From Dehalococcoidia bacterium (GTDB lineage: Bacteria > Chloroflexota > Dehalococcoidia > Bin125), in contig JAJDWB010000015.1 of assembly GCA_022825855.1 (NCBI GenBank), positions 1 through 64,000 on the forward strand: a DNA stretch of 64,000 bases. Reading direction: 5' to 3'. The number at the start of each line of letters is the position of its first letter. Position 1 is the first letter of the stretch. Position numbers and translations under genes: made by a program. This document shows, piece after piece, positions 8,343 through 37,561 of this stretch. Below the pieces are notes generated by a model that was not told the origin of the DNA, ran no database searches, and saw only the letters and a program-made list of their open reading frames with translations.

Positions 8343-8449
8343 GTAGTCTCCGGCGAGCGACAGAGGACCGCTTGACTGCCAATGATACGGCGCTACGGTT
8401 CAGGAGCTCTGCGGGACCGGGAAGCGCGAGTGCAGTCCGCCGCCTCAGA

Positions 8450-10174: not shown

Positions 10175-10266
10175 CCTGTCCAGACTATCCGGCTCAGAGT
10201 CGATTGAGGCGAACGCACCTGCGGTCGCTCAGGCAGGCCGCGGACTGCGAGATGCGGGAGCCGCGC

Positions 10267-11490: not shown

Positions 11491-11585
11491 GGCCCACCCT
11501 GATCATGGCGCGCGACGCAATCTGCGTTGCCAAGATCAGCGTATCAACGGGCAGACGAGACGTTCGTTGCCGCGTCCAAGCACTG

Positions 11586-13205
11586 TCAGGAGAGCGGCAG
11601 AAATCGCGCCAACAGCTCCTCAGGCGCTCGCGAGTCGGACTTGGTCGTATGCGTCGCGATCACGCCGTCGGGACGGACCACGACGGCCTCAGACTCCGCA
11701 TACGGAGTGTTCACGGCGTGCCGCATCTGCTCGATGCGAATGGGGAAGCCGCTCTGACGGTAGCCGTTGACCGCTGACTGCCAGCCGTCGTGCTCGCCCT
11801 GGCAGAGCATGACCACATACTCCGCCCCAAACCAGTCGAGTGTGGAGACCCTGCGGTGCGGATCGAGCCAGGCGTGCGGCGCGCGGCGCCCGCCGCGCAC
11901 AACCGGGATGAAGTCGCGGTGCTCGTTCTCAACGTGGGGCGGCGGGTCCCGATCGACCTGGCAGAGGTCGGACCGGTACTCGTAGCCCATGATCATGCCC
12001 TCGTAGCTGCCGTACTGGTGGCAATTGATCTCGGCCTGGGCCATGTCGCCGCCGGTCCGGTACGCCTGCCCGATCGCGGCGGCCAGGTTGGCGTTTTCGA
12101 TGCTCAGCCGCACGCGCCGCTCAGCGATCGGGCGGTGCTCCTGCTCGTAGGTGTCGAGCAACGAGGCGGGCGAGTGTCCCTGCAGCACGTAGGCGAGCTT
12201 CCAGCAGAGGTTGTGTGCGCCCGAGAATCCGGTGTTGCTGCCCATCCCGCCGGTGGGAATGAAGGCGTGCGCCGCGTCGCCCGCGAGAAAGACGCGGCCA
12301 TCGGAGAAACGCTCGGACAGTCCGGCGATGAAGTTCCAGGGGCGGATGCTGACCACCTCGAGGTCGAGCTCCGATTCGTCCACGCCGACGGCCTCGACGA
12401 TGTAGTCGTGCGCCTCTTGCATGGTCAGGTCGCCGCGATTGGGGTCCCAGCCTGGGAGCTGGACGCGCCAGCGCGTGGCGCCGTCCATCGGCTGATAGAC
12501 GCCCATGCCGTAGGAGGTGAAGATGAACATCAGGCCGCCCATGCGGTTGCCGACCCAGCGTGAGAGGTCGGCGTGGAAGAGGATGTCCTGGAGATAGAAG
12601 TTGAAGCTGTTTTCGTCCAGCGGGCAGCCGATCTGTTCTCGGGTCGCGCTGTGCACGCCGTCGGCGGCGATCACGTACTCGGCGCGGATCGGCTCGCCAT
12701 CCCGGGTCTCGCGATCGATCAGCGTAACCGAGCAGCCCTCGGCGTCCTGCGTGAGGTGTTCGGCGCTCGTGTAGAAGCGGACGTCGGCCGGCGCGCGCTC
12801 CCGCGCCGCCTGCCAGAGCGTTTCCTCGATCATGTCCTGCGCACCCATCACCGGGATGCTGGGGCTGTACTCGGCCGGGGCCATCTGGAACGACTCGGTC
12901 GGTACGGACGCGACATCCTTGCCGGCCAGGCTTTCGATCCAGCGATTTTGCCGGGTCCAGAGATCGCCGATGCCGGTCGCTTCTACGTCGTGATGCACGC
13001 CGAAGCGCCGCAGCAGCTCCAGCGTGCGGCGGTCGTAGAGCCGGGCACGCGGGTGGTCGCTCGTGTGCGGTCGCCGGTCAACGAGGATGTGCTCGACTCC
13101 GAGGCTGGACAGCAAGAGCGACGACGTCAACCCGATGAGGCTACCGCCGATCACCAAGACCTGAGTCTCACGCATCGCACGCCATCCAATCGCCTCGACC
13201 GTCAA
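11586..13205 (-). CDS. FAD-dependent aromatic monooxygenase (PheA/TfdB/RdmE type)
   Basis: The 539-residue product starts its FAD domain with TQVLVIGGSLIGLTSSLLLS (dinucleotide fold, residues ~14-33) and an acidic-end strand ILVDRRPHTS. The substrate domain includes YVIAADGVHSATRE (DG motif). The second FAD motif GRVFLAGDAAHAFIPTGG is followed by NTGFSGAHNLCWKL. The C-terminal ~150 residues resemble the thioredoxin-like domain of phenol hydroxylases. These enzymes add one oxygen to phenolic or polyketide rings using NAD(P)H. The Met at residue 11 is an equally good start. Neighbours (acyl-CoA dehydrogenase-like enzyme, MMPL pump, P450) suggest oxidation of a hydrophobic aromatic or polyketide. 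Confidence 0.9.
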   Translation of the reverse strand: MTVEAIGWRAMRETQVLVIGGSLIGLTSSLLLSSLGVEHILVDRRPHTSDHPRARLYDRRTLELLRRFGVHHDVEATGIGDLWTRQNRWIESLAGKDVASVPTESFQMAPAEYSPSIPVMGAQDMIEETLWQAARERAPADVRFYTSAEHLTQDAEGCSVTLIDRETRDGEPIRAEYVIAADGVHSATREQIGCPLDENSFNFYLQDILFHADLSRWVGNRMGGLMFIFTSYGMGVYQPMDGATRWRVQLPGWDPNRGDLTMQEAHDYIVEAVGVDESELDLEVVSIRPWNFIAGLSERFSDGRVFLAGDAAHAFIPTGGMGSNTGFSGAHNLCWKLAYVLQGHSPASLLDTYEQEHRPIAERRVRLSIENANLAAAIGQAYRTGGDMAQAEINCHQYGSYEGMIMGYEYRSDLCQVDRDPPPHVENEHRDFIPVVRGGRRAPHAWLDPHRRVSTLDWFGAEYVVMLCQGEHDGWQSAVNGYRQSGFPIRIEQMRHAVNTPYAESEAVVVRPDGVIATHTTKSDSRAPEELLARFLPLS

Positions 13206-13241
13206 GCCTACCCAATGTGAGGCGCGCTCGGGTTGGATCGC

Positions 13242-15682
13242 CTACTCACCGAGTACCTCGGCCGCGCGCCGTGCGGCGCTGCGCAGGCGGTGATTCTGGT
13301 AGGCGCCCCAGAGGATCATCGTCGGCGGGACAACGACGATGGCGGCGATCAGCGCGTAGGCGATCGTAATCGCGGTGACCAGACCGAACTGCTGGAACGG
13401 CGTCAACGTGGAGAAGACGAGCACGCCGAATCCGAGCGCCGTGGTCAGCGCTGAGCCGAGCAACGCGGAGCCAGTCGTGCCCAGCGTCGTCCGAGCGGCC
13501 TGCTCCGGATCCCCGGTATGCAGGAACTCCTCCTCGTAGCGATGAATGACGTGGATCGTGTAGTCGACGCCGATGCCGATCGAGAGCGCCGTGATCAGCG
13601 CCGTGATTACGTTGTACGGAATCCCGGCCAGCGACATCGTGCCGAGCACGCAGGCGAGCACCAACACGATCGGAAATACGGCGATGAAGCCGAGCTCGGG
13701 CCGGCCGTCGGCAATCCAGAAGAACAGCGTGAGGATGACCAGCGCCGCGATCACCGTGGTCGCAATTGCGGCAGTTTGACTACCGGTCATCGCGGCCACG
13801 ACCTCGAGCCCAATGATCTCGCCCGAGGTGGCGGTCAGTTCCGCGTCGTCGCCGTACCAGAGCGCATCGATGTCTTCCACCATCCGACCGGCGCGCTCCT
13901 GGTCGCGTGTCAGCGCGTCGAAGCGAATCAGCATCGTGTCGATTCCGTCAGGATCGTCGACCAGCACTTGGCCGAAGGCGACGGGGTCGAGTTCCTCGAC
14001 GCGGTCGATGATCGACTGCACGTCGTTGGGGTCGAGGCGGAACTGGTTGGCCGCTGCCGCCATCTCGGCGAGCTCGGCGTCGTAGCGGTCCTCCGGCGTG
14101 CCGTCGTCCGTCACCCAGTCGTTGAAGAGGACTCCAAACGAGGATGAGATTCCGCCGACCACGCCTTCGGGACGACGGAGATCATCGTCGAAGGCGCCGG
14201 TGAAATCGAAGATGTTGCGGAGCGTGCGGTCGTCGGTGAGCTCGGCCTCAATCACCACCTGCACCGCATCGGTCGAGCCACCAAAGGCGGCGTCGAGCGT
14301 CTCGACGTCGCGGACGCCATCGCTGCCGCGCGGCAGGAAGTCGCGCGAGTCGAACTCGGTGCTGATGTCGGTCGCGGCGATGCCCAGGATCACCGTAATC
14401 ACGGCGATCACGATGAGGAACGGAGCCGGGCGTCGGGCGAGCAGCCCGCCGAGCGCTTCAACCGCCGGTCCGACGCCGGGGATCGCCCCGGAAACGGGCT
14501 TCGCTTCGCCGAGCCTGCCGCTGTCCTCTCGACGGCCGTCGATCAGCGCTCTCGCCGAGGAGAGCAGCGCCAGCATCACGATCAGGCCGGCAGCGACTCC
14601 GACAGCCGCGACGATACCGAAGTCGCCGTTCGCGGGAATCGGCGAGGAGACGTTGGTGAGGAAGGAGACAATCGTCGTCACAGCCGCGAGCGAGAGCGGT
14701 AAGAGCACGGAGCGCAGGCTGATTCTCGCCGCTGAGCGGGCCTTCGCGCCCTCGCTGCGCGATTCGCGATAGAGGCCAATGGTCTGGATTGCGTAGTCGA
14801 CGACGAGGCCGATCAGCATCACCGGGACCATCGTCGTCATCGTATTGGGCGCGCCGATCAGGCCGAGTCCGTTGGGGCCCGCCACCCTTGCGCGCCGATC
14901 ACCCAGACGATTGTGAGAATCAGGCCGATCACCGACAGGGCCAGGTCGAGCAGCGAGCGGGTGAAGGCCAGGATCAGCAGCCCGATCACGGCCAGCGCGA
15001 TGACAATGATGATCGTCATCTGGGTGCCGGTCGCGCGTTCGGTCTCTTCTGCGGTGGTCGCCTCGGAGAGTCCGCTGCCCTCGAGCGGACCCGGCGTGTC
15101 GACCGCGATGGCGCGGATCAGCAGCTGGGCTTCCTCAAGCGTCTCTTCGTCGTCGACCTTGTCGCCATCCCGAGCGCCATCCTGGAAGAGGCGCACGTTG
15201 GCGATCGCGACGATCGTGCCGTCGACGTCAGCGCTGATCAGTCGATCCAGCGGCAGTTGCGCCGCCGCGGCATCGATCCGCGGCTGCGAGAGCGAAGCGA
15301 AGTCGTTGGTCTCGAGCGCGAGCCCGAGCGGGATGGTCGGTGAGACCACGCCGCCGGGCACGAGGAACGGCGCCACCAGGGAGTCGGTCACGACCGAGTC
15401 GATGACCTGCTGAATCTGCGCCAGGCCGTCGGGCGTGAGCGTCTCGCCTCGAAACAGCAACGTGACGGAGATCGTGTCCTGTGAGCTGCCGAAGAGGTTC
15501 TCGATCGTCTCGGTGGCGACGGTGACGTCGCTGTCTTCGGGCAGGAAGACGGAGTTGTCGGCCTGGTCGGCTATCTGCGTGATGCCCGCGCCCAGGAACA
15601 CCGTGACCGCAAGCAAGGCAACAAGCGTGAGCACAGGTTTGACCGTGAACAACCAGCTGAGACCGTCCAGGACTCTCGACAT
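13242..15682 (-). pseudogene. MMPL/RND-family exporter, single frameshift near 14870
   Basis: Two frames cover one protein of about 815 residues. The upstream frame (14858-15682) holds the first transmembrane helix, a periplasmic loop with PEDSDVTVATETIENLFGSS and helices up to IVWVIGAQGW. The downstream frame resumes with AGPNGLGLIGAPNTMTTMVP and VMLIGLVVDYAI, then a second periplasmic loop and helices ending with the IGIGVDYTIHVIHRYEEE block. Two repeats of five to six helices, each with a GxxVDY motif, define the hydrophobe/amphiphile RND family that exports lipids and hopanoids. The switch lies in GGGTGGCGGG; it could be a sequencing error, since both halves are otherwise intact. Confidence 0.82.
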
Positions 15683-15834
15683 GTCGGGCTCCCTTTGTCA
15701 CAACTCCAAGAGCAAGAGGCTGCACTGTCGGCAGACTTGGCCGCTCAGCTTGTTCCGTCTGTCCGCTTCGCGGCCAGATCAGTTAGTACGCTGAGGAACA
15801 ACCGGCAAGCGTTGCGGCCGCTCAGGAGATCAAG

Positions 15835-17118
15835 ATGGCAACTCCCTTCGACACCCCGCCTCAATCCCTGGACGAGGTCAACATCACCTCACCCGACGGC
15901 TACGCCTTGAGCGGATACCCGCACAGCCACTGGGCGTACCTGCGTCAGCACGCGCCGGCATTTCGCTACCAGGCGAGCGACGAGGAGCTCGAACCGTTCT
16001 GGGCGATCACGAAGTGGGAGGACATCCAGCGCATCTCCCGCGATCCGCAGACGTTCTCCAATAAGACGGACATCGTCTTGCGGCTCGGTCAGCTCGCGGA
16101 GGGCGGCGCGGCGCCGCAAACGCACCATCTGCTGGACATGGATCCGCCGGAACACGCGCAGTACCGAGCGCTCGTCAACCGGCGTTTCACCACGAGGGGC
16201 TTGTCCATGCTCGAGGAGCGCATCGATGAGGTGGCCGGCGAGGTGGTCGATCGGGCAGCGCGCCAGATCGTCGACGAGGTCGCCCGGCGCGGTGAGTGCG
16301 AGGTCGTCGCGGAGATTTCGAACCTCTTGCCGCTGGTCACCATCTGCGAACTGCTCGGCGTGCCCCGCGAACGGGAGGGCGACATGATCCAGTGGGTCAA
16401 CGAGATGGTCGGCTCAGGCGATCCCGAGTACCAGCGAGGCCGCACCCAGCAGGAGACGTTGGCCGCGGCCTCGCAGGCGTTGCTCGGCTTCTTCATGCAG
16501 CTGTCGCAGCAGAAACGAGAACAACCGACCGACGACCTGCTCACGACCCTGGTGCAGTCGGAGATCGATGGCGCCCCGCTGAGCCCGCTCGATCTGCTCT
16601 CCTATTGCTACCTGTTGATCATCGCCGGTAACGAAACGACCCGAAACACGATCTCGGGCGGTCTCATGGCCCTGATCGAGCATCCAGAACAGATGGCGTT
16701 GCTGCGCGCGGACCGATCACTCATGGATACCGCGGTGGAGGAGATCCTGCGCTGGGTCTCACCGGTGATTCACTTTGCCCGGGTCGTGACCGAAGACGTC
16801 GAAGTCGGCGGCCAGCTGATTCCCGCGGGTGAGAAGGTGGTCATGTTCTACCCCTCGGCGAATCGAGATGAGGACATCTTCGACGATCCCTTCAGGTTCG
16901 ACATCACCCGCACGCCGAACGATCATCTCGCCTTTGGCGGGTTTGGCGAGCACTACTGCCTCGGCGCCAACCTGGCCCGCTTGCAGCTGCGGACCATGTT
17001 CGGGCACATCCTCGATCGATTGGATGAGATCGAGCTGAACGGCGACATCGAACGACTACGCTCCGGCTTCGTCGGTGGGGTCAAGCGTCTGCCGATTCGC
17101 TACCTCGCTGACGGCTAA
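15835..17118 (+). CDS. Cytochrome P450 (bacterial class I type)
   Basis: The 427-residue product shows all P450 landmarks: the I-helix AGNETTRNTISGG near residue 265, the K-helix Glu-x-x-Arg in EEILRWVSP near 303, and the haem loop FGGFGEHYCLGANLA with Cys375 as haem ligand. HHLLDMDPPEHAQYRALV is the typical N-terminal C-helix region. It binds haem and, with a ferredoxin and reductase encoded elsewhere, hydroxylates a hydrophobic substrate. The I-helix has Asn-Glu-Thr-Thr in place of the more common Asp/Glu-Thr order, as in many sterol- or fatty-acid-type bacterial P450s. It is divergent from the MMPL gene across 152 bases, which probably carries both promoters. Confidence 0.95.
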   Translation: MATPFDTPPQSLDEVNITSPDGYALSGYPHSHWAYLRQHAPAFRYQASDEELEPFWAITKWEDIQRISRDPQTFSNKTDIVLRLGQLAEGGAAPQTHHLLDMDPPEHAQYRALVNRRFTTRGLSMLEERIDEVAGEVVDRAARQIVDEVARRGECEVVAEISNLLPLVTICELLGVPREREGDMIQWVNEMVGSGDPEYQRGRTQQETLAAASQALLGFFMQLSQQKREQPTDDLLTTLVQSEIDGAPLSPLDLLSYCYLLIIAGNETTRNTISGGLMALIEHPEQMALLRADRSLMDTAVEEILRWVSPVIHFARVVTEDVEVGGQLIPAGEKVVMFYPSANRDEDIFDDPFRFDITRTPNDHLAFGGFGEHYCLGANLARLQLRTMFGHILDRLDEIELNGDIERLRSGFVGGVKRLPIRYLADG

Positions 17119-17184
17119 CGGCGACTGGCGCACCGTTCGCCGATCCAATCTGCTCGGGAATCATCCGCACGTCTCAGCAACATC

Positions 17185-17937
17185 TCAGTTTGGCGGATCC
17201 CGTTCCTGCATGCGTTCCAGCGCTTCGCGTAGCTCACGAACTTCTTGCCTGAGCGCGGCAGAGTCCGTGTGCTCGGGTTCGCCGTGCCGTGTGAGCATCG
17301 AAGCGAGATTGGCCGTGAGTGCGGCGAATAATCCGATGCCGCCCAGCATGAGCACGTAGGCCAGCGCGCGACCTGCTGGCGTGACCGGCACGACATCGCC
17401 GTAACCCACCGTTGTCACGGTGGCGACCGACCACCACAAGGCGTCGCCAAACGAGTCAATCTGGGAGCCGTGCCCTTGCTCGAGCGTGGTCACGATCGTC
17501 GCGATCAGCAGGACGAGTCCAACCGCGTAGGCAGCCAGAAAGTCGATGTGCGCGAAGCGGACTCGACGTCCGTAGGCATGAGAACCGACCAGGAGGATGA
17601 GTGGGACCCTGAGCGGGCGGGCGACGGGAGCCAGAGCGGCCAGTAGATCGAACCAGTTGCGCCGCAGATATCGTGCTCGCTGCGGCGCTAGCGCGATCCT
17701 GACGGCCAGCTCCACCACGAAGATCGCCCAAGACACGCCGTACAGCGCGATCGCGGTCGAACGCGACACCGGACCAGAATCCCACACGAAGATCCCAGCG
17801 ATCAGCGGAACCATCGCCGCCGAGAGGATCATCAGCGGCACTTCAGTCGCACGCTCGATCTTGCCAAGCAACAGGCTGCGGCGTTCGAGCGATACGGAAG
17901 TGATTTCCTCGTGCTTCATCAAGCCCATGATGATCAT
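17185..17937 (-). CDS. Six-helix type potassium channel
   Basis: The 250-residue product has hydrophobic segments at about 35-52, 62-82, 95-118, 133-150 and 190-212, with the pore loop between the last two. The pore reads WWSVATVTTVGYGDVVPVTP, with the K+ selectivity filter TVGYG at residues 176-180. The C-terminal ~35 residues are charged and probably coiled (LRQEVRELREALERMQ), as expected for tetramer assembly. The voltage-sensor arginine ladder is weak (RARYLRRNWFDLLAAL). It should form a membrane K+ pore; gating is unknown. The stop is 67 bases from the convergent P450 stop. Confidence 0.9.
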   Translation of the reverse strand: MIIMGLMKHEEITSVSLERRSLLLGKIERATEVPLMILSAAMVPLIAGIFVWDSGPVSRSTAIALYGVSWAIFVVELAVRIALAPQRARYLRRNWFDLLAALAPVARPLRVPLILLVGSHAYGRRVRFAHIDFLAAYAVGLVLLIATIVTTLEQGHGSQIDSFGDALWWSVATVTTVGYGDVVPVTPAGRALAYVLMLGGIGLFAALTANLASMLTRHGEPEHTDSAALRQEVRELREALERMQERDPPN

Positions 17938-18003
17938 CAGCCCGCGGGGCGGCGCGCCATTTGAGTCGCAGCCGCAGAGAACATCGCCTGGTGAAGACGA
18001 GCG

Positions 18004-19050
18004 CTACCGTCTCGATGGCAGTGAGATCATCGTGCCATCGACGCCCAGCGTGATCTGCCCGCTGAAGGCGTCGCTGGTCCGCCGAAGAAACTGCCGTTCG
18101 AGCGTGGGCAGCAACAGCAACGGGGCGATGTGGTAGAGCAGCAACTGTCCGACGTCCGCTTCCGCGGCGGTCTCGGCAGCTTCTTCCGGCGTGGTGTGGT
18201 AGGAGATGATGTCGCGGGCGCCTTGCGCCGCCCGATCGTTCCCGGCAGCCTCAGCTGCGTTGGCAATCCATTCGGTTAAGCGGAAGTCGAGCGCTTCATG
18301 TACGAGCAGGTCGACTCCGCGGGCGTAGCCAATCAAATTGGCGGACTTGGTCGTGTCACCACTGATCACGATCGAGCGGTCGCGATAATCGATTCGATAG
18401 CCCACGGCCTCGGCAACGGGTTCGTGCGAGACCAAGAACGCGCGGACCCGGACGCCGTCTTCAGTCTCGATGATGGTCTGCGACTCGCCCTCCGCCGGGA
18501 GCGGAAACGGTACCGGGTCGAGGCCGCCGCCGCTCGCCGGCGTGAAGTCAGGCCCGTGGTGCGCGACGCGGTAACTGATATCGGCCGCGTAGGCGCGATT
18601 GAATCCGTCGGTCACCTCGCTGACCACCGGCGGGCCGTGCACGGGCAACGGATGCTCAGCGCCCGAATTGACCCAACGCAGGATGCCGAGCTCACCGAGT
18701 CCGTCGATGTGGTCGGAGTGGACATGGGTCAGGAAGACGGCCTCGACGCGTCCGATGTTCACGCCGAAGCGGGTGAGGTTTCGCGCCCCGTTGGTGCCGG
18801 CGTCGAACACGTACAGGTGGCGGCCCGCCTGAATCGCCACACAGGGACCGGAGCGCCTGATGTCGGCTAGCGGGCTGCCCGCGCCGCAGAGCAGCAGGTG
18901 GAGGCCATCAGGCAGATCGCCAAGGGTGTCGCGGGTCATCGCGGCCGCGACGGCTCGTTCGACCACCCGCTTGGTCATGCGCTCGGGCAGGAGCGAGGCG
19001 AGCCTGGACGCCAATAGCCGCGCAATCATGGCCAGGGCGATTCGCCTCAT
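18004..19050 (-). CDS. Metallo-beta-lactamase-fold hydrolase (RNase Z/arylsulfatase-like)
   Basis: I chose the ATG at 19048-19050 because AGGAG lies 6 bases upstream; a longer frame to 19242 lacks homology. The 348-residue product has the metal-binding motif FLTHVHSDHIDGLGELG (His109, His111, Asp113, His114), VLDAG-like VFDAGTNGARNL upstream, ISGDTTKSANLIGYARGVD with the third metal Asp, and HTTPEEAAETAAEADVGQ with a late His. This is the layout of the RNase Z-like branch that cleaves phosphodiesters or sulfate esters. A hydrophobic start (RLLASRLASLL) may anchor it to the membrane. The specific substrate is not predictable. Confidence 0.87.
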   Translation of the reverse strand: MRRIALAMIARLLASRLASLLPERMTKRVVERAVAAAMTRDTLGDLPDGLHLLLCGAGSPLADIRRSGPCVAIQAGRHLYVFDAGTNGARNLTRFGVNIGRVEAVFLTHVHSDHIDGLGELGILRWVNSGAEHPLPVHGPPVVSEVTDGFNRAYAADISYRVAHHGPDFTPASGGGLDPVPFPLPAEGESQTIIETEDGVRVRAFLVSHEPVAEAVGYRIDYRDRSIVISGDTTKSANLIGYARGVDLLVHEALDFRLTEWIANAAEAAGNDRAAQGARDIISYHTTPEEAAETAAEADVGQLLLYHIAPLLLLPTLERQFLRRTSDAFSGQITLGVDGTMISLPSRR

Positions 19051-20179
19051 GCTGCTCTCCTGCGAACGAACCAGGCCAACTCTCGTTTCGCCGCATTCAT
19101 GCGCACTGGGCCTCGTCGGATCGAGCTTCGGAGGTCCAGCCCGCCCTCGGCACGGCAAGGTTACCAGTAGGAACGGGCATCGGCGTGCAGATGAGGGAGG
19201 ATCCTCCATGTCAGGAGGTGCCGATCTCTTGTAGCCAAGCACTGCGCTCCGACGAACATGGCCTGCTCAAGCGCCACCATATCCGTCAGCGATGAGAGGC
19301 GACACGGGCCGTATGAGCCGATGATGTCTGCCACTGTGTATCCGGGGACCATCCAACTGAAGCGACAACCGGCCCGCGACCCGATCGGTCGACCTCCCGT
19401 CTCTTGGTCGGTCGAATCTGCCCCCGCTCGTTATCCTTGCGTTCGTTCTCATTGCACTGCCACCCTATGCGCAACGCGAATCACACAATCGAGTTCGGCC
19501 GCGCGGTTGGTGGCCGGGAACGCGGCCGCTGACAACCGTACCGGTGCCCATGTCACGCCGGACCTCTGAGTCAGCGCTGAAGCGCCCGCCTGGCGAAGAT
19601 CCCGGCCAATCGCCGACTCCAGCGATAATCGAGCGGGGCAACGAACAACAATGCCGCGCCGAGACGCAGCGACACGATGAAGGTCGTCCTCGTGTAGCCG
19701 ACCGCGCCGCCACTGTCCCCGTCGCTGAGCACCTCCAATCCCAGCCCAACGCGCGTCGTTCTCAATATCGAGGGGGAAGATCACCTGTCGCCCGGGCTGC
19801 GCATAGGACGCTCGTAGAGCGCTCACTCTCGCCACGTCCGGCCTCGTCTGCTCCGGCTAGACGAGCGTACGCGTCCTGAACTCTGGATTGCATTCGACTC
19901 GAAATCGCGAACTTGAGCGACAGGTTCGGGATCCTGTCTGGTTCCTCTCTCTTGGCCGACTGCGTGATGGTCTTGCCACTGCGCATGCTGGTGTGTCTCG
20001 CCTTGCTCAACAGAAAGGTCAGTCTCAGTCTTGTGAATGGGCGGTTTTGGCCATGACCCCTGGGGAGCTGCAACTCAGTCGGCATGCTTGAGGCTGACGG
20101 TGTACTCGGCGAGGCCCTCGATGACAGAGCGTCGGGCTGCGAAGGTCCCGGTCCGATCCGAAGAAATCGACGTTCGCTG
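19051..20179. other. Decayed intergenic tract
   Basis: No convincing gene. A minus-strand stretch at 19571-19765 ends FVAPLDYRWSRRLAGIFARR and looks like the tail of a small membrane protein. Another at 19161-19352 reads VPGYTVADIIGSYGPCR. Neither has a start with ribosome site or an intact partner. Base composition drifts toward AT at 19.87-20.04 kb. Confidence 0.4.
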
Positions 20180-20590
20180 CTACTCTTCCTCGATGCACTC
20201 GAGCGCCACCCTGGTCGGCAGCCAGCCCGCCCAGACCTCCTCCGACGCGCGCGCCGCTTCGGCGGTGTACGGCGTCAAGGTGGCGTCCTGCACGTCGCCG
20301 AACGCGATCAGCACACGCTTCCAGTTCTCGCCGTATCCGGGTGGGTTGTCCTTGTTCGCGTCGTAGTAGGACCGAACCGTGTTGAGCAGGACCTGCGAGA
20401 CGCACACCGACTGCGGGTCGTCGTCCGCCACCGCGACCGTGGCCGCGCCCTGCGTCGCCGAGACGGTGTACTTCGCGCCCGGGCTCAGGGCGACCGTGAC
20501 GGAACCGTCCGCCTGGTCCGTGGCGTTGTCGGTGGTGGCGATGCTGAGCGTCGCCGTGCCGCTGGGGCCGATCGTGACCGACCGCGCCTC
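20180..20590 (-). pseudogene. Calx-beta protein C-terminal relic, joined to a helicase fragment
   Basis: The frame carries SVTIGPSGTATLSIATTDN, ADGSVTVALSPGAKYTVSA and VAVADDD, one Calx-beta unit. It is followed by a C-terminal domain YYDANKDNPPGYGENWKRVL with ALECIEEE before the stop. That helical domain has a counterpart inside the 1833-residue protein (WNRVLAALGEDTG, ARTIKQQFDN). There is no start. Upstream the same strand switches abruptly, at about 20575-20600, into DNA homologous to the SNF2 helicase gene, giving a chimeric frame that cannot be functional. Confidence 0.7.
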
Positions 20591-20935
20591 GGCCGTCCAC
20601 GGGGCGTCCCGCAGCGGGGGCAGGTGTGACGCTTGCGATCCAGCTGCTTGTGCGAGACCGGCACGACTTCCGGGTCCACGATCTGCGCCGTGCAGTTGGG
20701 GCAAGCCGGAGTCATGACGAACTCGCCGGTCTCCGCGTCGCGGACGGGATGGCCGTTCTCGTCCTTCAGTCGGCGCATCCAGTAGGCGGCACGGAAGCGG
20801 TAACCCAGCTTGGCCCTTGAGTGCGACATGACCGCGCATTAGGGTCTAGGACCTTCTTGATGCGGGAGCGCCTAGAGGTCGGTGATGATGTCGGCGATGG
20901 CTACCTTCGCCCGCGGGGAGACGCTGGCGATCAGG
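20575..20935 (-). pseudogene. SNF2 helicase zinc-ribbon region relic
   Basis: The minus-strand frame starting at 20829 reads MSHSRAKLGYRFRAAYWMRR and TGEFVMTPACPNCTAQIVD, then DRKRHTCPRCGTP. The intact helicase (28167-30527) has MSHSRAKLGHRFRPAYWMRR and CSDCTAQIVD in the same order. DNA similarity extends upstream to about 20935 but with stops and indels (the stretch matching ISDLEALRHQEGPGPQYVV is broken). The helicase motor motifs are absent. Confidence 0.75.
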
Positions 20936-22575: not shown

Positions 22576-25500
22576 TTGCACAGCCTCGCCAAGTACTTCC
22601 CTGCCCGCTTCCTGCGCAAGGGCGTGAGAGCGGGCGCAATCCGCCCGGTCGGACTGGCAATTCTGGCTATCGCCCTGCTCGGCATTGAGGCCCTGGCCGC
22701 CAGTGTGCTGTTGCCGCAGGCGGCAAATGCGAGCGACCCGCCTGGACCCTGCGATGACGGCTACGTCGCCCCGACTCCGGTCGCGGTGGCGGTGACCGGC
22801 GTTCCCATCGAGGTCGCTTCGACCACCGCTGACTATTTTGTGTTGTACATCCGTTATGGTGGCGGCATCGATCTGCCTATCTCGGTGACGCTCGGCGAGG
22901 CGGGAACCACCACACTCACGGACCGACTGCGGCCGCTGGCGGCCAACCGGTATCGCGTGGAGAAGTACGCGGTGGCCCATCCCGCTGACATTGACGGCGA
23001 CTGTATCGACGACCTCACTGAACTTGCCGACATGGGCACTCACCATCCCCTGAATCCAGCACAACTCTCCGACTCCAACCTCGGCATGGTCGCCTTGCCA
23101 TCTCACGATGAGTTCGAGACCCTGTCCTTTACCGGGCTGTCCCGCCCGATACCTGGTCATTATCTGAATGATGTGCAATACGTCAAGTTCTGGATTGTGG
23201 ACACGACGACCGCTCGTCCCAGCCTCTATCTGATGAACACCAACACGACATACTGGCATCAAGACTTCGCCGAGAAGGTGGGCGTTCCCAACCGCGATGG
23301 TGTGCAAGGCGAGATCATATTCCACCCCAACGTGAGTGCCCCTGATGGGTCGTTGGGGCATTACAGCTTCAGTGCATCCCTGTCGCATCGCGGGATCTTT
23401 TGGTTCCATCGGGCAGAGCGCGTCAACGAGATTCTAGCTACGGCCTTGCCGTTCATCGATAACAATCTTGCTTACTATCCGCCGACTGCATTCGTCGACT
23501 TCTACGAAACGGAGAAGGAAGAATATGCAGCCTCTCGGGTCAATGTTCTGTTGGAGGAGGATATCCTCCCCGACATTGACTTCATTCCCCTCAATCAAGC
23601 TGAGGGCTACGGACGGCTGCGATTGATGGAGGATGACGACCGACCCAGTCCCTACGATGTGGCGATATACACCAGCTTGCCCAACGACCTGCCTCGCGTG
23701 GCCGGAACGATCACCACGGTGCCGCAGACGCCGCTCTCCCACGTCAATCTGCGAGCAATTCAGAACAATCTGCCCAATGCGTTCATCCGCGACGTGCTCA
23801 AAGATGAAGCGATCAAGCCGATCATTGGCAAATACGTGTATTACGCCGTGACCGGCAAGGGCTACACCATCCGCGAGGCGACCAAGAAGGAAGTGGACGA
23901 CCACCACGAGAGCTTGCGTCCCCAGAGCGCCCAAACCCTGCAAAGCGACTTGACAGTCACAACAATCGCCTCGTTGGCGGATGTCGACTTCGATGACTGG
24001 ACCGCCTTCGGCGTCAAGGCGGCCAACGTGGCCGAGCTCACAACGCTCTCGCTGCCCGATGGCACGACGCCCGTCGGCTACGCGGTGCCCTTCTACTTCT
24101 ACGATCAATTCATGAAGCAGGCGACCATCGCCAAGGAAACCATCCTTGGCAAGAAGAAAGCACCTGACGAGGAGAAGGTTACCCTTGCGGCCGGGACCAC
24201 GCTCGCCTCTGCAGTCACGCAGATGCTGGCGCATCCGTACTTCCAGACGGATGCCGACATTCAGGAAGAGATGCTGGACGACTTGCGGGATGCTATCAAG
24301 GACGCGGCGACACCTCAGTTCATCATCGACGCCCTGACTGATATGCACGCCGAGTACCCGGATGGACAGTCCCTACGCTACCGGTCCAGCACCAACAACG
24401 AGGACCTGCCGAACTTCAACGGTGCCGGCCTGTACAGCTCCAAGACTCAGGATCCAGACGAGACCACCGACGAAGGCATCGATAAGTCGATCAAGAGCGT
24501 CTGGGCCAGCCTGTGGAATCATCGCGCATTCCTGGAGCGCGATTTCCATCGGATTGACCACACGACCGTGTACATGGGCGTCCTCGTACACCCGAACTAC
24601 TCGGACGAACTGGTCAACGGCGTCGCGGTCAGCTACGACCCCGTCACCTTCCAGGACAACGCCTACTACGTTAACTCGCAGATGGGCGAGGACCTGGTCA
24701 CCAATCCCGAGGCCTACTCCCAGCCCGAGCAACTGCTGCTGGGGGCCACCGGTGCCGCCACGGTGCTGTCTCGCTCCAATCTGGCGACTTCAGAGCAGCT
24801 CCTGATGAGCGACGCCCAGATGCAACAACTACGCAGCAACCTGGAGACCATCCACAACCACTTCAAAACTCTGTACGGAGTACAGGATGGCGAGGACTTC
24901 GCCATTGAGATTGAGTTCAAGATTACCGCGGCGAACAAATTGGCGATCAAGCAGGCACGACCGTGGATCTTCGCCCAACCGTTGGAACTGACGCCCACGG
25001 TGACGATCGCCTTGAGTTCAGCCCAGGTCTCTGAGGACGCCAAGCTGGAGCTGACAGTAACCCGTAGCGGCGGTGTGTTATCGGTGCCCCTCACGGTCGA
25101 TCTGACCTGGAGCGAAACGGGCTCCATGCTCAAGGCCGCCAAGCCGGCCACGGTGACGATCCCGATCAATCAGGCGACGACGACCATCAGCGTGCCGATC
25201 GCCAACGACCAGGAAGATGAGCATGACAGCATCATCAGTGTGAGCATCGCTGCCAACGCCAGCTACGCCATCGGCACTCCCGGTTCGGCGTCCGCCACTG
25301 TGACTGATGATGACCTGACCCAGATCTCAGTGCGCGCTGACGCCGAAACGGTGACGGAGGGATCGACAGCAGATTTCACTTTCAAGAGATCCGGCAGCGT
25401 ATTGGGGCAGCCCCTGACCGTGGATGTTACGGTTACTGACAGCGGGAGTCGGCTGACGGGCATCTTGCCCGCCTCAGTAACGTTCCCCGCCAACAGTGCG

Positions 25501-28077
25501 ACGACGAGCGTGTCGCTGGCGACCGCTGACGACGAGGTCATTACTCACCAGAGCGTGGTCACCGTTCAGATTGACGCCGGCAGCGGATACGGCATCGCTG
25601 GTGCTGGGTCGGCGAAGGTCACGGTGCAGGACGACGAAGTGCCGGGACCCATATTGCTGTTTCCCGCTGACCACGCCGTCAGCGATGGCACAGTCTACGT
25701 GGTCGCATTGAACACCAGCAGAAGTACCAGAAACGGCTTGAGGTTCTCGATCGACGGGCCCGACACCGGCGCATTCACCCTGTACGGAAGTGCCGAACTC
25801 CTGGTGTTCAATGAGCATGGGTACGACCCGCCGGGTGACGCCAATCAAGATGGCGTCTATGAGATAGATTTCGTGGCGGAGAACAGCTTCGACGGCCGCG
25901 TCGGCACAACGAAGGTGCGCATGCGTTTCACTGTCACCAACGCCGAGCTGATCGCCCTGGCGGAGCAACAATGGGATCAGACGAACCCAGAGCAGCGCGC
26001 CGCACTCTTACCAAATGTGCATACATCGCGGCTGCGGCACGCATACGCCAACCTACCGACTGATGTGCAGGCCATGGCGCTGCGGCTCGCGCGGCAACAG
26101 CAATTCCAATCGCCCGGCCCCACGGTCAGCATTGCAGCAGACAGCGACATCAGTGAGGGCGGCAGCGCTGTCTTCACCGTCACCGCCGACCCTGCGCCTG
26201 CCGCGGACCTGGATGTCACCGTGAGCGTGTCCCAGACCGGCGACTTCGGCGTCTCAACCGGCTCGCAGACCGTAACGATCCCGACCAGCGGCAGCGCGAC
26301 GCTGACTCTGTCGACCTCGGACGACTCGGTCGACGAGGCCGACGGCTCGGTGATAGTCGCCGTGAACCGAGGCCATGGCTACCTGGTGTCTTGGGCGGCA
26401 GAGGAGGCAACGGTGGCGGTGGCCGACGACGATGCTGCCCCTCCCACAACCACGCCTGAAATCAGCATCACCGCCGGTTCCGGCATCATTGAGGGCGGCG
26501 TCGCGACGTTCACGATCAGCGCCAATCCCGCACCGGCTGCCGCGCTCTCGGTTGCTGTTGCGGTATCGCAGACGGGCGACGTTGGGGTCACGCCGGGTTC
26601 ACAGACGGTGACCATTCCCACCAGCGGCAGCTACACGCTGAGCGTCGCCACCGTGAATGACAACGTGGACGAGGCCGATGGCTCGGTGACTGTCACGGTG
26701 GCTAGCGGCCAGGACTACACCGTGTCCAGCACGGCAGGTTCGGCCGCGGTTGCCGTGGCGGATGATGACGATCCGCCGCAAACCTGTACGCCGAACCTGC
26801 CAGCGGACGCCATCACCGTGTCAGACGTGAAGACCTGGCGCGGCGATTACTCGCACGCCGCCCACGTGTCGCGCTGGAACCGCGTCCTCGCGGCGCTCGG
26901 CGAGGATACGGGCGAATCGGCGATGTCGGCGGACGACGCTCGGACCATCAAGCAGCAGTTCGACAACTCGCGCTGGGGCCGCACCGTCCGCACGCTGGAC
27001 GCAATGGAGCAGTGCGCCGATTCAACCGATACAACCGAACCGCCAGCCACGCCGGAGGTGAGCATCAGCGGAGGTTCGGGCATCACTGAGGGCGGGAACG
27101 CCAGCTTTACCCTGACTGCCAATCCTGCGCCCGTCGCCGCGCTGTCGGTCACCGTTGCGGTGTCGCAGACGGGCGACTACGGCGTCGCAACCGGTTCGCA
27201 GACCGTGACGATTCCGACGAGCGGCAGCTATACGCTCACGGTCGCCACGACCAACGACGCAGTCGACGAAGTGGACGGCTCGGTCACGGTGACGGTGGAC
27301 ACCGGCTCGGGCTACACCGTGTCCACCACTGCGGGTTCGGCCAACGTTGCCGTGGCTGACGATGACGCCGCGCCGCCCGCGACGCCGGTGATCAGCATCA
27401 CCGCTGGGGGCAGCGTCACCGAGGGCGTGAATGCCAGCTTCACGGTGACCGCCGACCCTGCGCCGGCGTCGGCGCTGTCGGTCACCATTGCGGTGTCGCA
27501 GACGGGCGACTTCGGCGTCGCGACCGGTTCGCAGACGGTGACGATCCCGACCAGCGGCAGCTACACGCTCACGATTGCAACATCGGACGATTCGGTCGAC
27601 GAAGTGGACGGCTCGGTCACGGTGACGGTGAACTCTGGCACGGGTTACGATGTGTCGTCAACCGCTGGCAGCGCAACCGTCGCAGTCTCGGATGACGATG
27701 ATCCGCCGCCACCCCCGCCTGTTGTAAACACGACGCCGACGCTCTCGATTGGTGATGGGTCGGCGACCGAAGGCGGCGCCATCACGTTCACGGTGACCTT
27801 GAGTCCCTCGAGTAGTCAGTACGTGTGGGTACATTACTACGCCCGTCCCAGCTACGGGGCAGCGGCGTCGGCGACCTATGCGGACTTTGAGCAGACGTAC
27901 GGTCTGCTCGCGTTCAATCCGGGCGAGACGTCGAAGACGATCACGGTGGCGCTGACCGACGATGGTGTCGTCGAAGGAGACGAGACGTTTGTCGTCGTCC
28001 TCTACAACGCCTACGGGGCGGGTCAGCCGAAGATCGGCGATGTGGAGGCGGTCGGCACGATCATCGACAACGACTGA
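22576..28077 (+). CDS. Giant secreted protein: PEP-synthase/PPDK-like module plus Calx-beta repeats
   Basis: The 1833-residue product starts at TTG (22576), 9 bases after AGGAG. A signal peptide covers about residues 1-50 (GLAILAIALLGIEALAASVL). Residues ~60-330 are unassigned. TPLSHVNLRAIQNNLPNA (His389) resembles the swivelling phospho-His domain of PEP-utilising enzymes. Residues ~470-820 match the PPDK/PEP-synthase nucleotide-binding domain (WTAFGVKAANVAELTTL, SLRYRSSTNNEDLPNFNGAG, SVWASLWNHRAF). From ~805 to the end there are about seven Calx-beta units, one cadherin-like unit (~1025-1140) with a calcium-loop-like DANQDGVYEIDF, and a small helical domain (~1415-1480). The role is unknown. 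The catalytic half of such enzymes is cytoplasmic, so its export is odd. Confidence 0.9.
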   Translation: MHSLAKYFPARFLRKGVRAGAIRPVGLAILAIALLGIEALAASVLLPQAANASDPPGPCDDGYVAPTPVAVAVTGVPIEVASTTADYFVLYIRYGGGIDLPISVTLGEAGTTTLTDRLRPLAANRYRVEKYAVAHPADIDGDCIDDLTELADMGTHHPLNPAQLSDSNLGMVALPSHDEFETLSFTGLSRPIPGHYLNDVQYVKFWIVDTTTARPSLYLMNTNTTYWHQDFAEKVGVPNRDGVQGEIIFHPNVSAPDGSLGHYSFSASLSHRGIFWFHRAERVNEILATALPFIDNNLAYYPPTAFVDFYETEKEEYAASRVNVLLEEDILPDIDFIPLNQAEGYGRLRLMEDDDRPSPYDVAIYTSLPNDLPRVAGTITTVPQTPLSHVNLRAIQNNLPNAFIRDVLKDEAIKPIIGKYVYYAVTGKGYTIREATKKEVDDHHESLRPQSAQTLQSDLTVTTIASLADVDFDDWTAFGVKAANVAELTTLSLPDGTTPVGYAVPFYFYDQFMKQATIAKETILGKKKAPDEEKVTLAAGTTLASAVTQMLAHPYFQTDADIQEEMLDDLRDAIKDAATPQFIIDALTDMHAEYPDGQSLRYRSSTNNEDLPNFNGAGLYSSKTQDPDETTDEGIDKSIKSVWASLWNHRAFLERDFHRIDHTTVYMGVLVHPNYSDELVNGVAVSYDPVTFQDNAYYVNSQMGEDLVTNPEAYSQPEQLLLGATGAATVLSRSNLATSEQLLMSDAQMQQLRSNLETIHNHFKTLYGVQDGEDFAIEIEFKITAANKLAIKQARPWIFAQPLELTPTVTIALSSAQVSEDAKLELTVTRSGGVLSVPLTVDLTWSETGSMLKAAKPATVTIPINQATTTISVPIANDQEDEHDSIISVSIAANASYAIGTPGSASATVTDDDLTQISVRADAETVTEGSTADFTFKRSGSVLGQPLTVDVTVTDSGSRLTGILPASVTFPANSATTSVSLATADDEVITHQSVVTVQIDAGSGYGIAGAGSAKVTVQDDEVPGPILLFPADHAVSDGTVYVVALNTSRSTRNGLRFSIDGPDTGAFTLYGSAELLVFNEHGYDPPGDANQDGVYEIDFVAENSFDGRVGTTKVRMRFTVTNAELIALAEQQWDQTNPEQRAALLPNVHTSRLRHAYANLPTDVQAMALRLARQQQFQSPGPTVSIAADSDISEGGSAVFTVTADPAPAADLDVTVSVSQTGDFGVSTGSQTVTIPTSGSATLTLSTSDDSVDEADGSVIVAVNRGHGYLVSWAAEEATVAVADDDAAPPTTTPEISITAGSGIIEGGVATFTISANPAPAAALSVAVAVSQTGDVGVTPGSQTVTIPTSGSYTLSVATVNDNVDEADGSVTVTVASGQDYTVSSTAGSAAVAVADDDDPPQTCTPNLPADAITVSDVKTWRGDYSHAAHVSRWNRVLAALGEDTGESAMSADDARTIKQQFDNSRWGRTVRTLDAMEQCADSTDTTEPPATPEVSISGGSGITEGGNASFTLTANPAPVAALSVTVAVSQTGDYGVATGSQTVTIPTSGSYTLTVATTNDAVDEVDGSVTVTVDTGSGYTVSTTAGSANVAVADDDAAPPATPVISITAGGSVTEGVNASFTVTADPAPASALSVTIAVSQTGDFGVATGSQTVTIPTSGSYTLTIATSDDSVDEVDGSVTVTVNSGTGYDVSSTAGSATVAVSDDDDPPPPPPVVNTTPTLSIGDGSATEGGAITFTVTLSPSSSQYVWVHYYARPSYGAAASATYADFEQTYGLLAFNPGETSKTITVALTDDGVVEGDETFVVVLYNAYGAGQPKIGDVEAVGTIIDND

Positions 28078-28125
28078 TTGAGCGGGTCGAGTCTCTCGCA
28101 GGCACGAAAAAAGACCGCGACACAT

Positions 28126-28164
28126 GGAAGGGGGAGGTCGTCGATACGACGACCTCCCCCTTCC
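28126..28164. terminator. Perfect hairpin between convergent genes
   Basis: An 18-bp arm (28126-28143, GGAAGGGGGAGGTCGTCG) is followed by a 3-base loop and its exact reverse complement to 28164. It sits between the stops of the Calx-beta gene (28077) and the SNF2 helicase (28167). On the minus strand a six-T run follows about 14 bases after the stem, so termination is most plausible for the helicase transcript; it could also protect the plus transcript. Confidence 0.75.
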
Positions 28165-28166
28165 CG

Positions 28167-30527
28167 TCAGCCGCCAGCAGCCGCGAGTCCGGCCTGTTGC
28201 TCGCGCTCCAGCGCCCAGTCGAAGAGCGACGGCCCAGTCTGTCCGGAGCGCCGCCCACCGCGCTTGGGTTGCTCGTCCAACTCGGTCAGGAACTCGGCCC
28301 AGCTGAACAGCGTGGACTGTTCCTGATGCTCCGAGGAGTGATGCCCGCCACAGGGAACGAGCGCAGCGGCCGCGGGCTCCGCCCCCGAGGGCAGCGCGAC
28401 GATCGGGGCCGGTTGCGGCTCGATCCCCTGCCAGTCGTCGTCGACCAGCAGCTGGTCAGCCTGGGCCGCGATCTCCTGCGCTTCCCGGAAGATGTCCTCG
28501 ACCGGCGCATCGTCTGCGTCGCCCGAGACGAGCTTGCGGGCCAGGGCCATCATCAGGTCGTCGCCCGTGTCGCCGTAGCCGGCCAGGCCGTCCTCGGGCA
28601 GCTCGCCCTCGACCGCGAGCGACGACTGCAGCTTCTGCGCGACCAGCTTGAGCGCGTCCGCCTGTAGCGTCGAGCGGTAGGCCATGAACACGACCTTGAC
28701 CGGCCGGGTCTGACCGATCCGCCAGCTGCGGCGCGAAGCCTGGCGCATCGTGTAGACCGAATAGTCAGTTTCATACCAACACACGGTCTCGAAAGCGATC
28801 AGGTCGAGCCCGGTCTGGACCAGCCGTGGGTGGCAGATCAGCACGTCAATGCCGTCCTCGACGCGCTTGGCGACCCAGGCCTCGCGCTGCTTGGGTTCGA
28901 CCCGGTCGGCCTTCATCACCGCAGCGCGGAAGCCGTGCCGCTCCAGCATGGCCGAGAGCCGGCCGGTGATGTCGCGCGTGCCGGTGTGGGTCGCGTAGAC
29001 CAGCACCCGCCGACCAGCGAGGCGTTCCTGCGCCACCAGGTCGATCAGCTGCTGCTCCTTCGGGTAGACGCGCTCCTCGTCCAGGGGCGGCAGCTGCACG
29101 ATCAGCTCGCCCGAGTCGGGGTCGAAGACGGTCTCGCCCCGGGTGCAGCCCTCGGGATAGGCCAGGAGCGAATGCAGGTAGGTCGAGAGCAGCCGCTGCG
29201 AGCCGCGTTCGAGCGCAACCAGCAACGCCCGCTTGAGCTGGAGCGCGAGGTGCTGGTAGGCCGAGGCCTGCGAGAACCCGTGCAGGTTGGGCTCGTCGTC
29301 CAGCCTCGCCACCTGGATCTGCTCCTCGTAAGGCGGCAGACCCGAAGCCACATCACTCAACTTGAGGAAGAGCGAGTGGCCGATGATGTGGAACAGCGCT
29401 CCGGGCGCGAGGCCCGGCCGCTCCTTGACCTGGTTGCGGTAGCTCTTGCGCCGCGAGACGGAGCCGTCCTCGGTTGGGTCGTCGGGGTCGCGGTCGTGGC
29501 GCACGGACTGCTCCAGGAAGCCGTAGCGCTGGACCCACTTGCTCTCCTCGGAGCGCCCGAACTCGGAACGGATTTCCGGGGAGAACCGGTAGAGCAGGTG
29601 GAAGAGCGTACTCGCGTACCCTCCCATTAGGGTTCCACTCAGGGCCAGCGACTTGCCGCAGGCGTCGGCCAGGATGCCGGCGGAGAGGCCCTGGGCCGAA
29701 CCTCTCCCCTTGTGCTCGTGAACCTCGTCGACGACCAGCAGGTCGAAGTAGCCGCGCATGTGGTTCTTGACGTAGTCGGCCAGCGGGTACTTGCGCGGAC
29801 CCTGCCCCGGCGCCCGTCGAGCCATGAGCCCGGCGTTGTAGTCGGTCGTCACGGTCTGGACCGGACGGGCCTCCGCCGTCCACAGGGGCGTGCCGCACTT
29901 TGGGCAGCTGTGTCGCTTGCGGTCCAACAGCTTGTGCGAGACGGGGACGCCTTCGGCGTCCACGATCTGCGCCGTGCAGTCGGAGCAGGCCGGGGTCATG
30001 ACAAACTCGCCGGTCTCCGCGTCGCGCACGGGATGGCCGTCCTCGTCCTTGAGCCTGCGCATCCAGTAGGCGGGACGGAAGCGGTGACCGAGCTTGGCCC
30101 GTGAGTGCGACATGACCACGTACTGTGGTCCCGGACCTTCTTGGTGGCGCAGCGCCTCGAGGTCGCTGATGCTGTCCGCGATGGCCGTGCGGACCAGGGG
30201 CAGCGTCTCCTCGATCTCGCGCTTCCACTTGCCCACGAGATGGGGCGGGCACAATACGAGCACGCGGCGGAAGCCGGCCAGTTGCGCGGCGGCGATGCCG
30301 ATGAACGTCTTGCCGACGCCCATCTCGCCGACCACGGTGGTGCCGCGCTGCTCGGTCAGGCTCAGCGCGGCCCCGCGGATGGCGGTCTCCTGGGCGCCCA
30401 TCGGCCGGCGCTTGAGCGGCGGCAGCGGGCGGTCGTCCTCGGCCGGACGGTAGCGGGGTGGATAGCTGTGGACGATCCGCTTCGTGATCGCCTCGCGGTA
30501 GGTGTCGATGAACTCAGAGAGGTTCAC
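28167..30527 (-). CDS. SNF2-type DEAD/H helicase with inserted zinc ribbon
   Basis: I start at GTG 30525-30527 (VNLSEFIDTYREAITKRIVH) because GAGGAGG lies 10 bases upstream and it overlaps the previous stop by 4 bases. The 786-residue product has Walker A GEMGVGKTFIGIAAAQ (residues 67-74), LVLCPPHLVGKWKREIE, a four-Cys insertion (CSDC ~177, CPKC ~210), the DEVHEHKG box (~268), LSGTLMGGYAST, and the second RecA half ending RQASRRSWRIGQTRPVKVVF. This is the SWI2/SNF2 translocase layout. It is the last gene of the minus-strand island operon, beside a DNA methyltransferase gene. It probably remodels protein-DNA complexes or acts in defence or replication of the element. Confidence 0.9.
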   Translation of the reverse strand: MNLSEFIDTYREAITKRIVHSYPPRYRPAEDDRPLPPLKRRPMGAQETAIRGAALSLTEQRGTTVVGEMGVGKTFIGIAAAQLAGFRRVLVLCPPHLVGKWKREIEETLPLVRTAIADSISDLEALRHQEGPGPQYVVMSHSRAKLGHRFRPAYWMRRLKDEDGHPVRDAETGEFVMTPACSDCTAQIVDAEGVPVSHKLLDRKRHSCPKCGTPLWTAEARPVQTVTTDYNAGLMARRAPGQGPRKYPLADYVKNHMRGYFDLLVVDEVHEHKGRGSAQGLSAGILADACGKSLALSGTLMGGYASTLFHLLYRFSPEIRSEFGRSEESKWVQRYGFLEQSVRHDRDPDDPTEDGSVSRRKSYRNQVKERPGLAPGALFHIIGHSLFLKLSDVASGLPPYEEQIQVARLDDEPNLHGFSQASAYQHLALQLKRALLVALERGSQRLLSTYLHSLLAYPEGCTRGETVFDPDSGELIVQLPPLDEERVYPKEQQLIDLVAQERLAGRRVLVYATHTGTRDITGRLSAMLERHGFRAAVMKADRVEPKQREAWVAKRVEDGIDVLICHPRLVQTGLDLIAFETVCWYETDYSVYTMRQASRRSWRIGQTRPVKVVFMAYRSTLQADALKLVAQKLQSSLAVEGELPEDGLAGYGDTGDDLMMALARKLVSGDADDAPVEDIFREAQEIAAQADQLLVDDDWQGIEPQPAPIVALPSGAEPAAAALVPCGGHHSSEHQEQSTLFSWAEFLTELDEQPKRGGRRSGQTGPSLFDWALEREQQAGLAAAGG

Positions 30528-30721
30528 GGGGTCGGTTCCTCCTCGATGTGGGCCCGGGCGTCCTTGACGCAGGCGGACAGTTCGTCGTATTCGTCTCGGC
30601 TGAGACCGCAGCGGCACCACCAGCTGTAGCTGCGGCCGGCGGTCTCGTTGCCGTGTTCGTCGATGGCTGTGAGTTCCTCGAAGAAGATCTCGCAGCTCTT
30701 GTCGTTGCTCCAGGGGTCCAT
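30524..30721 (-). CDS. Small Cys-pair protein, tandem paralogue A
   Basis: The 65-residue product begins MDPWSNDKSCEIFFEELTA and ends CVKDARAHIEEEPTP. It shares the pattern PWxND-C-IxF-DEHGN-Y-W-C-CG-DEY-L-CV-DAR-HIE with the next gene upstream, so the two arose by tandem duplication. Cys residues in the WWCRCG and SACVKD segments could bind zinc. The stop overlaps the helicase GTG by four bases, implying coupled translation. Function unknown. Confidence 0.75.
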   Translation of the reverse strand: MDPWSNDKSCEIFFEELTAIDEHGNETAGRSYSWWCRCGLSRDEYDELSACVKDARAHIEEEPTP

Positions 30722-30727
30722 GGCTGG

Positions 30728-30916
30728 TTACACCTCGATGTGGCGGCGGGCGTCGCGGACGCAATCGTCAAGCGACTCGTACTCGTCGTGGTCGCGCCCG
30801 CAACTGGCGCAGTGGTAGCGGTAGGTCGAGGGCGCGGCGTCGTTGTCGTGCTCGTCAACGGGCGTGATCCGGTCGAAGTAGATGTGGCAGCCCAGGTCGT
30901 TGAGCCAGGGGTTCAT
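30728..30916 (-). CDS. Small Cys-pair protein, tandem paralogue B
   Basis: The 62-residue product (MNPWLNDLGCHIYFDRITPV start, RDARRHIEV end) is the paralogue of the downstream 65-residue protein. It has HCASCGRDHDEYESLDDCV, a likely zinc site. Only six bases separate it from the next gene. Function unknown. Confidence 0.75.
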   Translation of the reverse strand: MNPWLNDLGCHIYFDRITPVDEHDNDAAPSTYRYHCASCGRDHDEYESLDDCVRDARRHIEV

Positions 30917-36947: not shown

Positions 36948-36983
36948 TGGTTGCTCCTTCCGTTGGTGAGCGGGAACGAATGC

Positions 36984-37014
36984 GGGGCCGCGACCCATGA
37001 GGGAGCGCGGCCCC
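36984..37014. repeat. Intergenic hairpin, copy 1
   Basis: Arms GGGGCCGCG (36984-36992) and CGCGGCCCC (37006-37014) flank a short loop containing a GAGGGA core. It lies between the radC start and the first ssb stop. The same arms recur in copy 2, so this is a repeated element rather than a chance stem. Confidence 0.7.
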
Positions 37015-37054
37015 GGAGTGCGCCTCCGTGGAGGCGTCGGTGACTCGGAGGTGA

Positions 37055-37426: not shown

Positions 37427-37490
37427 CGGTAGTGCTCCTTTCAGAGAGCAGGTGTGTTGGCGCGGAACGCCCGCGCCGGTTAAACGAGGC

Positions 37491-37521: not shown

Positions 37522-37561
37522 GTGGTGCGCCCGTCGTGCGGGCGTCGTGGCTCGATTTGGG

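Follow-up and report, generated by a model that had tools for sequence, protein, structure and literature searches.

Three surface-protein and helicase loci in a Dehalococcoidia contig as one present and probably two or more former edges of a conjugative element family

Results

The DNA analyzed here is a stretch of 64,000 nucleotides (the window), which corresponds to positions 1-64000 of contig C11 of genome G000 (2.8 Mb, 22 contigs). A preliminary description made from the letters alone had reported related surface-protein and helicase sequences at three loci, and a self-comparison of the window recovered every one of these similarities. The features of the three loci and of the surrounding integrative conjugative element (ICE) are listed in Table 1.

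Table 1. Positions of the features discussed in the text, in window coordinates.
Feature	Position	Strand	Content or evidence
3' part of Calx-beta surface-protein gene, cut by contig start (locus 1)	1-903	+	Pfam Calx-beta
Decayed helicase C-terminus, hairpin and spacer, twice in succession (locus 1)	930-1240	-	Alignment to locus 3
Segment collinear with L011/G010:C6 and G009:C9, ~95%	6788-20586		SBP, ACAD, MMPL, P450, ion channel, MBL
3' end of P0005-type surface-protein gene, joined to helicase relic (locus 2)	20180-20590	-	L011 match
Helicase relic, codons 184-293, interrupted by stops and a frameshift, from another ICE copy (locus 2)	20576-20931	-	DNA match to helicase
Giant secreted-looking surface protein, 1833 aa (locus 3)	22576-28077	+	Pfam PPDK_N 4e-21, Calx-beta 2e-19
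14-bp stem-loop and T-rich block, directly past helicase stop codon (locus 3)	28081-28169	-	Conserved across ICE copies
ICE core common to window and G010:C6	28096-57782		DUF6094 methyltransferase, TrbL, PrgI, VirB4-like, coupling protein, Replic_Relax
SNF2/ResIII-type helicase of ICE backbone, 865 aa as ORF (locus 3)	28167-30764	-	Pfam helicase domains; likely start codon 30527

Locus 3 holds the only intact pair, which the preliminary description had delimited as convergent genes at 22576-30527. The Calx-beta gene (+) and the helicase gene (-) do converge, with 89 bp between them, and the proposed GTG start of the helicase at 30527 is supported by the conserved helicase start VNLSEFIDTYREAI. 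The surface protein consists of an N-terminal signal-like segment, a PPDK_N ATP-grasp domain (478-796), tandem Ig-like repeats and a C-terminal Calx-beta domain, which scores 70.3 bits against PF03160, while the partial gene at 1-903 scores 39.8 bits, both over the curated cut-off of 27. The N-terminal half of the protein has a 57% homologue in G014:C23, with no helicase match nearby. The stem-loop behind the helicase gene shows compensatory changes at 5 of its 14 pairs when 15 loci are compared. DNA conservation between ICE copies stops at 28096-28131, just past this hairpin, and the content beyond it varies from copy to copy.

The helicase family is present in G000 and in 12 of 14 further genomes of the genus (partial copies counted), and in 47 of 393 genomes sampled across the class. 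Its nearest relatives are found in Dehalococcoidia/Chloroflexi MAGs, which we take to be mostly sponge-associated bins. An assignment to the SNF2 helicases of defence systems (DISARM DrmD, ZorD, DpdE) was rejected, as the family scores lie far under the respective cut-offs (DrmD, 21.7 against 610 bits; DpdE, 17.7 against 500; SCO1167 family, 36.9 against 1200) and PADLOC gave weak matches only.

Upstream of the helicase, the window's element carries VirB4/TraG P-loop, TrwB/TraG-D_C, TrbL, PrgI and Replic_Relax (candidate relaxase) genes, and is classed as an ICE by its T4SS ATPase, coupling protein and relaxase-like gene. The helicase is conserved together with the DUF6094 methyltransferase and, across relatives, with T4SS genes; it is a backbone gene of the whole ICE. 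A comparison with G010:C6 showed collinearity at 6.8-20.6 kb (95%) and at 28.1-57.8 kb (89%), while the DNA of the slot between these two stretches differs. The pair of locus 3 sits where the conserved ICE core ends on one side; the preliminary description had suspected the edge of the conjugative element.

Several further features were observed in and around the element. A group II intron maturase gene (RVT_1, GIIM) lies inside the ICE at 34225-36108 (-) and was found at the same place in L020 only, among the relatives examined. A tandem direct repeat of ~500 bp (85% identical) at 36982-37981 is doubled in relatives too, and 1673-2203 and 7610-8313 hold an SBP_bac_3 gene with a broken, inverted copy. 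Past the window, at 64785-70400 of the same contig (L059), a Cas9 of 1039 aa (TIGR01865, E 5e-158) is encoded beside a CRISPR array with the 36-bp repeat AGTTTAGTCGGTCAGGGAATGGTCGGCCGCCAAAAC, apparently within the ICE and between the T4SS genes and the integrase.

The integrase of the relatives is a large serine recombinase (Resolvase, Recombinase, Zn_ribbon), whose nearest curated model is CcrB, with a score below the cut-off of that model. Its 3' end abuts or overlaps tRNA-Ala(CGC), tRNA-Ala(GGC), tRNA-Arg(TCG) or tRNA-Glu, and an integrase at one end of the element and at a defined site was found in G010 (C6 and C10), G001 (C41) and G009. Contig C12 of G000 starts with an integrase at tRNA-Ala(GGC), and the ICE of the window therefore probably sits at this tRNA gene, C12 and C11 being separate in the assembly. 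Several contigs of relatives end at the 3' end of tRNA-Ala or within ~130 bp of it, as expected where insertions vary. A search for an attL on the helicase side with the core TGGTGGA found none in the window or in G010:C6, nor was this core found on the side of the remnants described below; a shorter core is possible. Gene order around tRNA-Ala(GGC) proved to be rearranged when ICE-free sites were compared. In G003:C25 (77120-80235, L190), two serine recombinase genes lie tail to tail, ~48 bp apart, around a TCCACCA core, an arrangement that resembles a tandem ICE junction but has no tRNA gene.

Surface-protein genes lie between helicase and integrase in two relatives. The single contig G001:C41 reads relaxase-VirD4-VirB4-TrbL, followed further on by DUF6094-helicase-1856-aa Ig-repeat protein-serine recombinase-tRNA-Arg, and in G003:C25 a 3013-aa adhesin separates helicase and integrase. 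In G010, and probably in the window as well, the integrase stands at the opposite linear end. Both layouts can be read as one circular order, which would run helicase, adhesin slot, integrase/att, cargo, T4SS.

The slot after the helicase is occupied by very different proteins. In addition to the 1833-aa protein of the window, we found a Big_9/Cadherin_5 protein in L013, a protein with 22 fn3 matches in L021, a He_PIG protein in L014, the 1856-aa protein with Ig-like repeats in L117, two fn3 proteins in L121 and P0005 in L011, so that the occupants comprise Calx-beta, fn3, Big_9/Cadherin_5 and SWM/Big_5 types or no adhesin. Matches among the slot proteins are limited to the Calx-type repeats and one tandem pair. 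The gene is convergent to the helicase, as in the window, in L013, L014 and L021, and convergent pairs of a giant surface-protein gene and the helicase, which the preliminary description had proposed to look for, thus do occur in other genomes. Helicase ends without an adjoining adhesin are seen in L010, L015, L016, L020 and L023, and outside the genus the slot mostly holds other cargo, so that the adhesin preference is not class-wide. Judging by their domains, the slot proteins presumably act as adhesins.

Of 16 helicase ends, 7 have a giant adhesin-like ORF at a distance of up to 4 kb, as against 7 positives among 125 control windows (Fisher P 1.3e-4). This P value is indicative: the counting rule of fixed length plus composition was adopted after a looser rule had proved noisy, G001 alone contributes three of the seven positive helicase ends, and the control windows are non-random, their seven positives representing two adhesin genes only, both near tRNA-Ala(CGC). 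A detector based on composition alone (odds ratio 3.7-6.4, P 0.03-0.001) was dropped because GAPDH and other proteins passed it. For the Calx-type loci alone, counted by hand, a Poisson estimate gives 0.07 expected against 5 seen. Flanking adhesins differ between ICE copies with cores that are 80-90% identical. As the slot proteins are for the most part unrelated, the surface protein is a replaceable occupant of a variable slot, and probably exchangeable cargo.

At locus 1, the Calx-beta 3' end and the convergent helicase relic that had been proposed for 1-1240 were both confirmed, and the relic resolved into two decayed helicase ends at about 930-1060 and 1080-1240. Positions 1-466 match 27166-27631 with 85% identity, and 859-1054 match 28033-28227 with 69.7% identity (E 3e-13). 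The latter match runs across the Calx stop codon and through the spacer into the helicase C-terminus, so that the non-coding DNA of loci 1 and 3 aligns as had been claimed. Locus 1 is probably another dead element edge beside a Calx-beta gene. Relics of helicase ends also occur in L016, L023, G001:C32 and G011:C451, and that of L016 is closer to the helicases of L013/L021 (80.5%) than to its own neighbour helicase (76.6%). An older element is also indicated on the other side of the window's element, where 61035-61230 holds a relic of the 3' part of the coupling-protein gene (73% identity to 53264-53459).

Locus 2 had been described as a same-strand chimera of the helicase zinc region and the Calx-beta end. 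This description holds at the DNA level only, and the presumed Calx-beta part belongs to another gene. Positions 20576-20901 match 29859-30185 with 85% identity (E 4e-101), and the real stretch scores 366 bits, whereas no shuffled copy of the locus exceeds 32 bits. The helicase frame is interrupted by a one-base frameshift and two stops; the 219-aa ORF at this place reads the helicase DNA in another frame. A working helicase-adhesin fusion was rejected on these grounds. No PF03160 match was detected in the locus 2 ORF alone; its adhesin part resembles P0005 of L011 (74% of amino acids) and not the 3' end of the window's Calx-beta gene.

The origin of this joint is suggested by L011 (JAJEJC010000009.1), where an intact arrangement is found on one strand: helicase (10001-12562, +), P0006 (407 aa), P0005 (1554 aa, +), MBL and P450. 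The end of P0005 and the following MBL gene (18940-22562 of L011) correspond to 20586-16975 of the window with 92.7% DNA identity, while the L011 helicase corresponds to 20586-20901 with 86.8%. Since both matches meet at window position 20586 and share no more than a few bases at the junction, locus 2 is a deletion joint inside an older, L011-like same-strand arrangement and did not arise from a move of the convergent pair. Relative to L011, a deletion of ~8 kb fused the middle of the older helicase (codon ~293) to the last ~300 bp of the adhesin gene. The relic is 86.8% identical to the L012/L011 helicases and 85.5% to the window's own helicase; a recent duplication of the latter was rejected, since other copies are at least as close to the relic as this helicase is.

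Discussion

The preliminary description had inferred that surface-protein and helicase genes move or recombine as a unit. The association is indeed non-random and recurs; the existence of a mobile pair, by comparison, does not follow, as the partner of the helicase is exchangeable. A two-gene cassette moving alone would account for the homologous junction of Calx stop, spacer and helicase end at loci 1 and 3, but the helicase has the ICE core upstream wherever a contig extends that far, its partner is unrelated in other copies and sometimes lies on the same strand (L011, L117, L121), and the pair showed neither cassette ends nor a recombinase of its own. Such a cassette is very improbable, and we rejected it because the partners are not conserved. 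Just as improbable is that locus 2 and the other relics are artefacts of assembly or binning caused by repetitive Calx-beta and helicase sequences. The window does begin at a contig end within Calx repeats, in which the contigs of relatives break as well; the locus 2 relic, on the other hand, differs from each helicase copy found by 13% or more and so cannot be a misplaced piece of any of them, and synteny with independently assembled MAGs continues up to the junction.

A more serious alternative, although we regard it as unlikely, is that the adhesins are chromosomal and that the ICE, or recombination between ICE copies, lands beside adhesin-rich hypervariable regions, so that helicase and adhesin become neighbours through insertion preference and not as cargo. 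Adhesin genes near FADox/MMPL and ACAD in G007:C166 with no helicase nearby, a 4858-aa adhesin at tRNA-Ala(CGC) of G000 without an ICE, and a P0005-type adhesin that adjoins MBL in both G009 and G010 are in line with it. Against it stand the order helicase-adhesin-integrase in G001:C41 and G003:C25, and flanking adhesins that vary beside ICE cores of 80-90% identity.

We consider it probable that the three loci represent edges of a single ICE family with an adhesin cargo slot and layered remnants, one edge being present-day and at least two being former ones. The conserved core (T4SS, DUF6094 methyltransferase, helicase) would end past the stem-loop after the helicase stop codon, with a variable cargo slot beyond it on the integrase/attachment side that in this genus often receives a giant tandem-Ig, Calx-beta or fn3 surface protein. 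The elements would integrate at tRNA 3' ends by means of the large serine recombinase, and repeated integration at one locus would leave remnants of older elements decaying on the side away from the tRNA gene. Locus 2 is probably one such remnant and locus 1 another former edge. That relics often resemble other ICE lineages is in keeping with a build-up of successive elements at a single site (ICE/CIME accretion); the layering would arise by site-specific accretion. The following observations count against this reading: no attL was found on the helicase side of the window's ICE, so that its Calx gene may lie outside the element; several helicase ends have no adhesin beside them; the homology of locus 1 is weak (70%); and MBL/P450 lie beside the ICE at tRNA-Ala(CGC) in G010, while in G000 they seem to be linked to tRNA-Ala(GGC), so that a rearrangement is needed.

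SXT/R391 and other ICEs have hot spots in which the cargo varies while its place at the border of the conserved backbone is fixed. The elements described here share this design, but their slot is frequently taken by one giant Ig-like surface protein and not by resistance or metabolic genes. At loci 1 and 2, as in L016 and L023, a decayed element lacking conjugation and recombination modules stands in tandem with an ICE, as is typical of a CIME. In streptococcal ICEs, tandem accretion at the target gene yields the order CIME-ICE-target (PMC7563491). As in that system, the remnants have no conjugation or recombination genes and are found at the ICE flank that faces away from the target gene, and recombination between related elements reshuffles them. 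In contrast to the streptococcal elements (PMC7563491), those described here use a large serine recombinase and tRNA targets, occur in Chloroflexota, and leave remnants recognised by helicase ends and not by att sites.

Robbins et al. (2021; PMC8163846) describe cadherin and fibronectin-III attachment genes as enriched in sponge symbionts and laterally transferred, potentially via mobile elements; the portion of the article cited here does not name the vehicle of transfer. The surface-domain classes and the sponge-associated bacteria of that portion resemble ours, while the genes reported here lie in or at a conjugative element and at a repeatable place. The helicase 3' end with its hairpin, and serine recombinase genes at tRNA 3' ends, can serve as markers for finding more such elements. 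It is conceivable, and tentatively suggested by our data, that sponge-symbiont Chloroflexota share a widespread conjugative element through which strains swap giant animal-like adhesion proteins in a slot between the helicase and the integrase side. If so, the element would serve, within the sponge microbiome, as a vehicle for functions of attachment to hosts or neighbours. As a candidate for spreading adhesion-type genes among sponge-dwelling bacteria, the locus offers a specific and testable vehicle for attachment genes and also shows old copies decaying in place.
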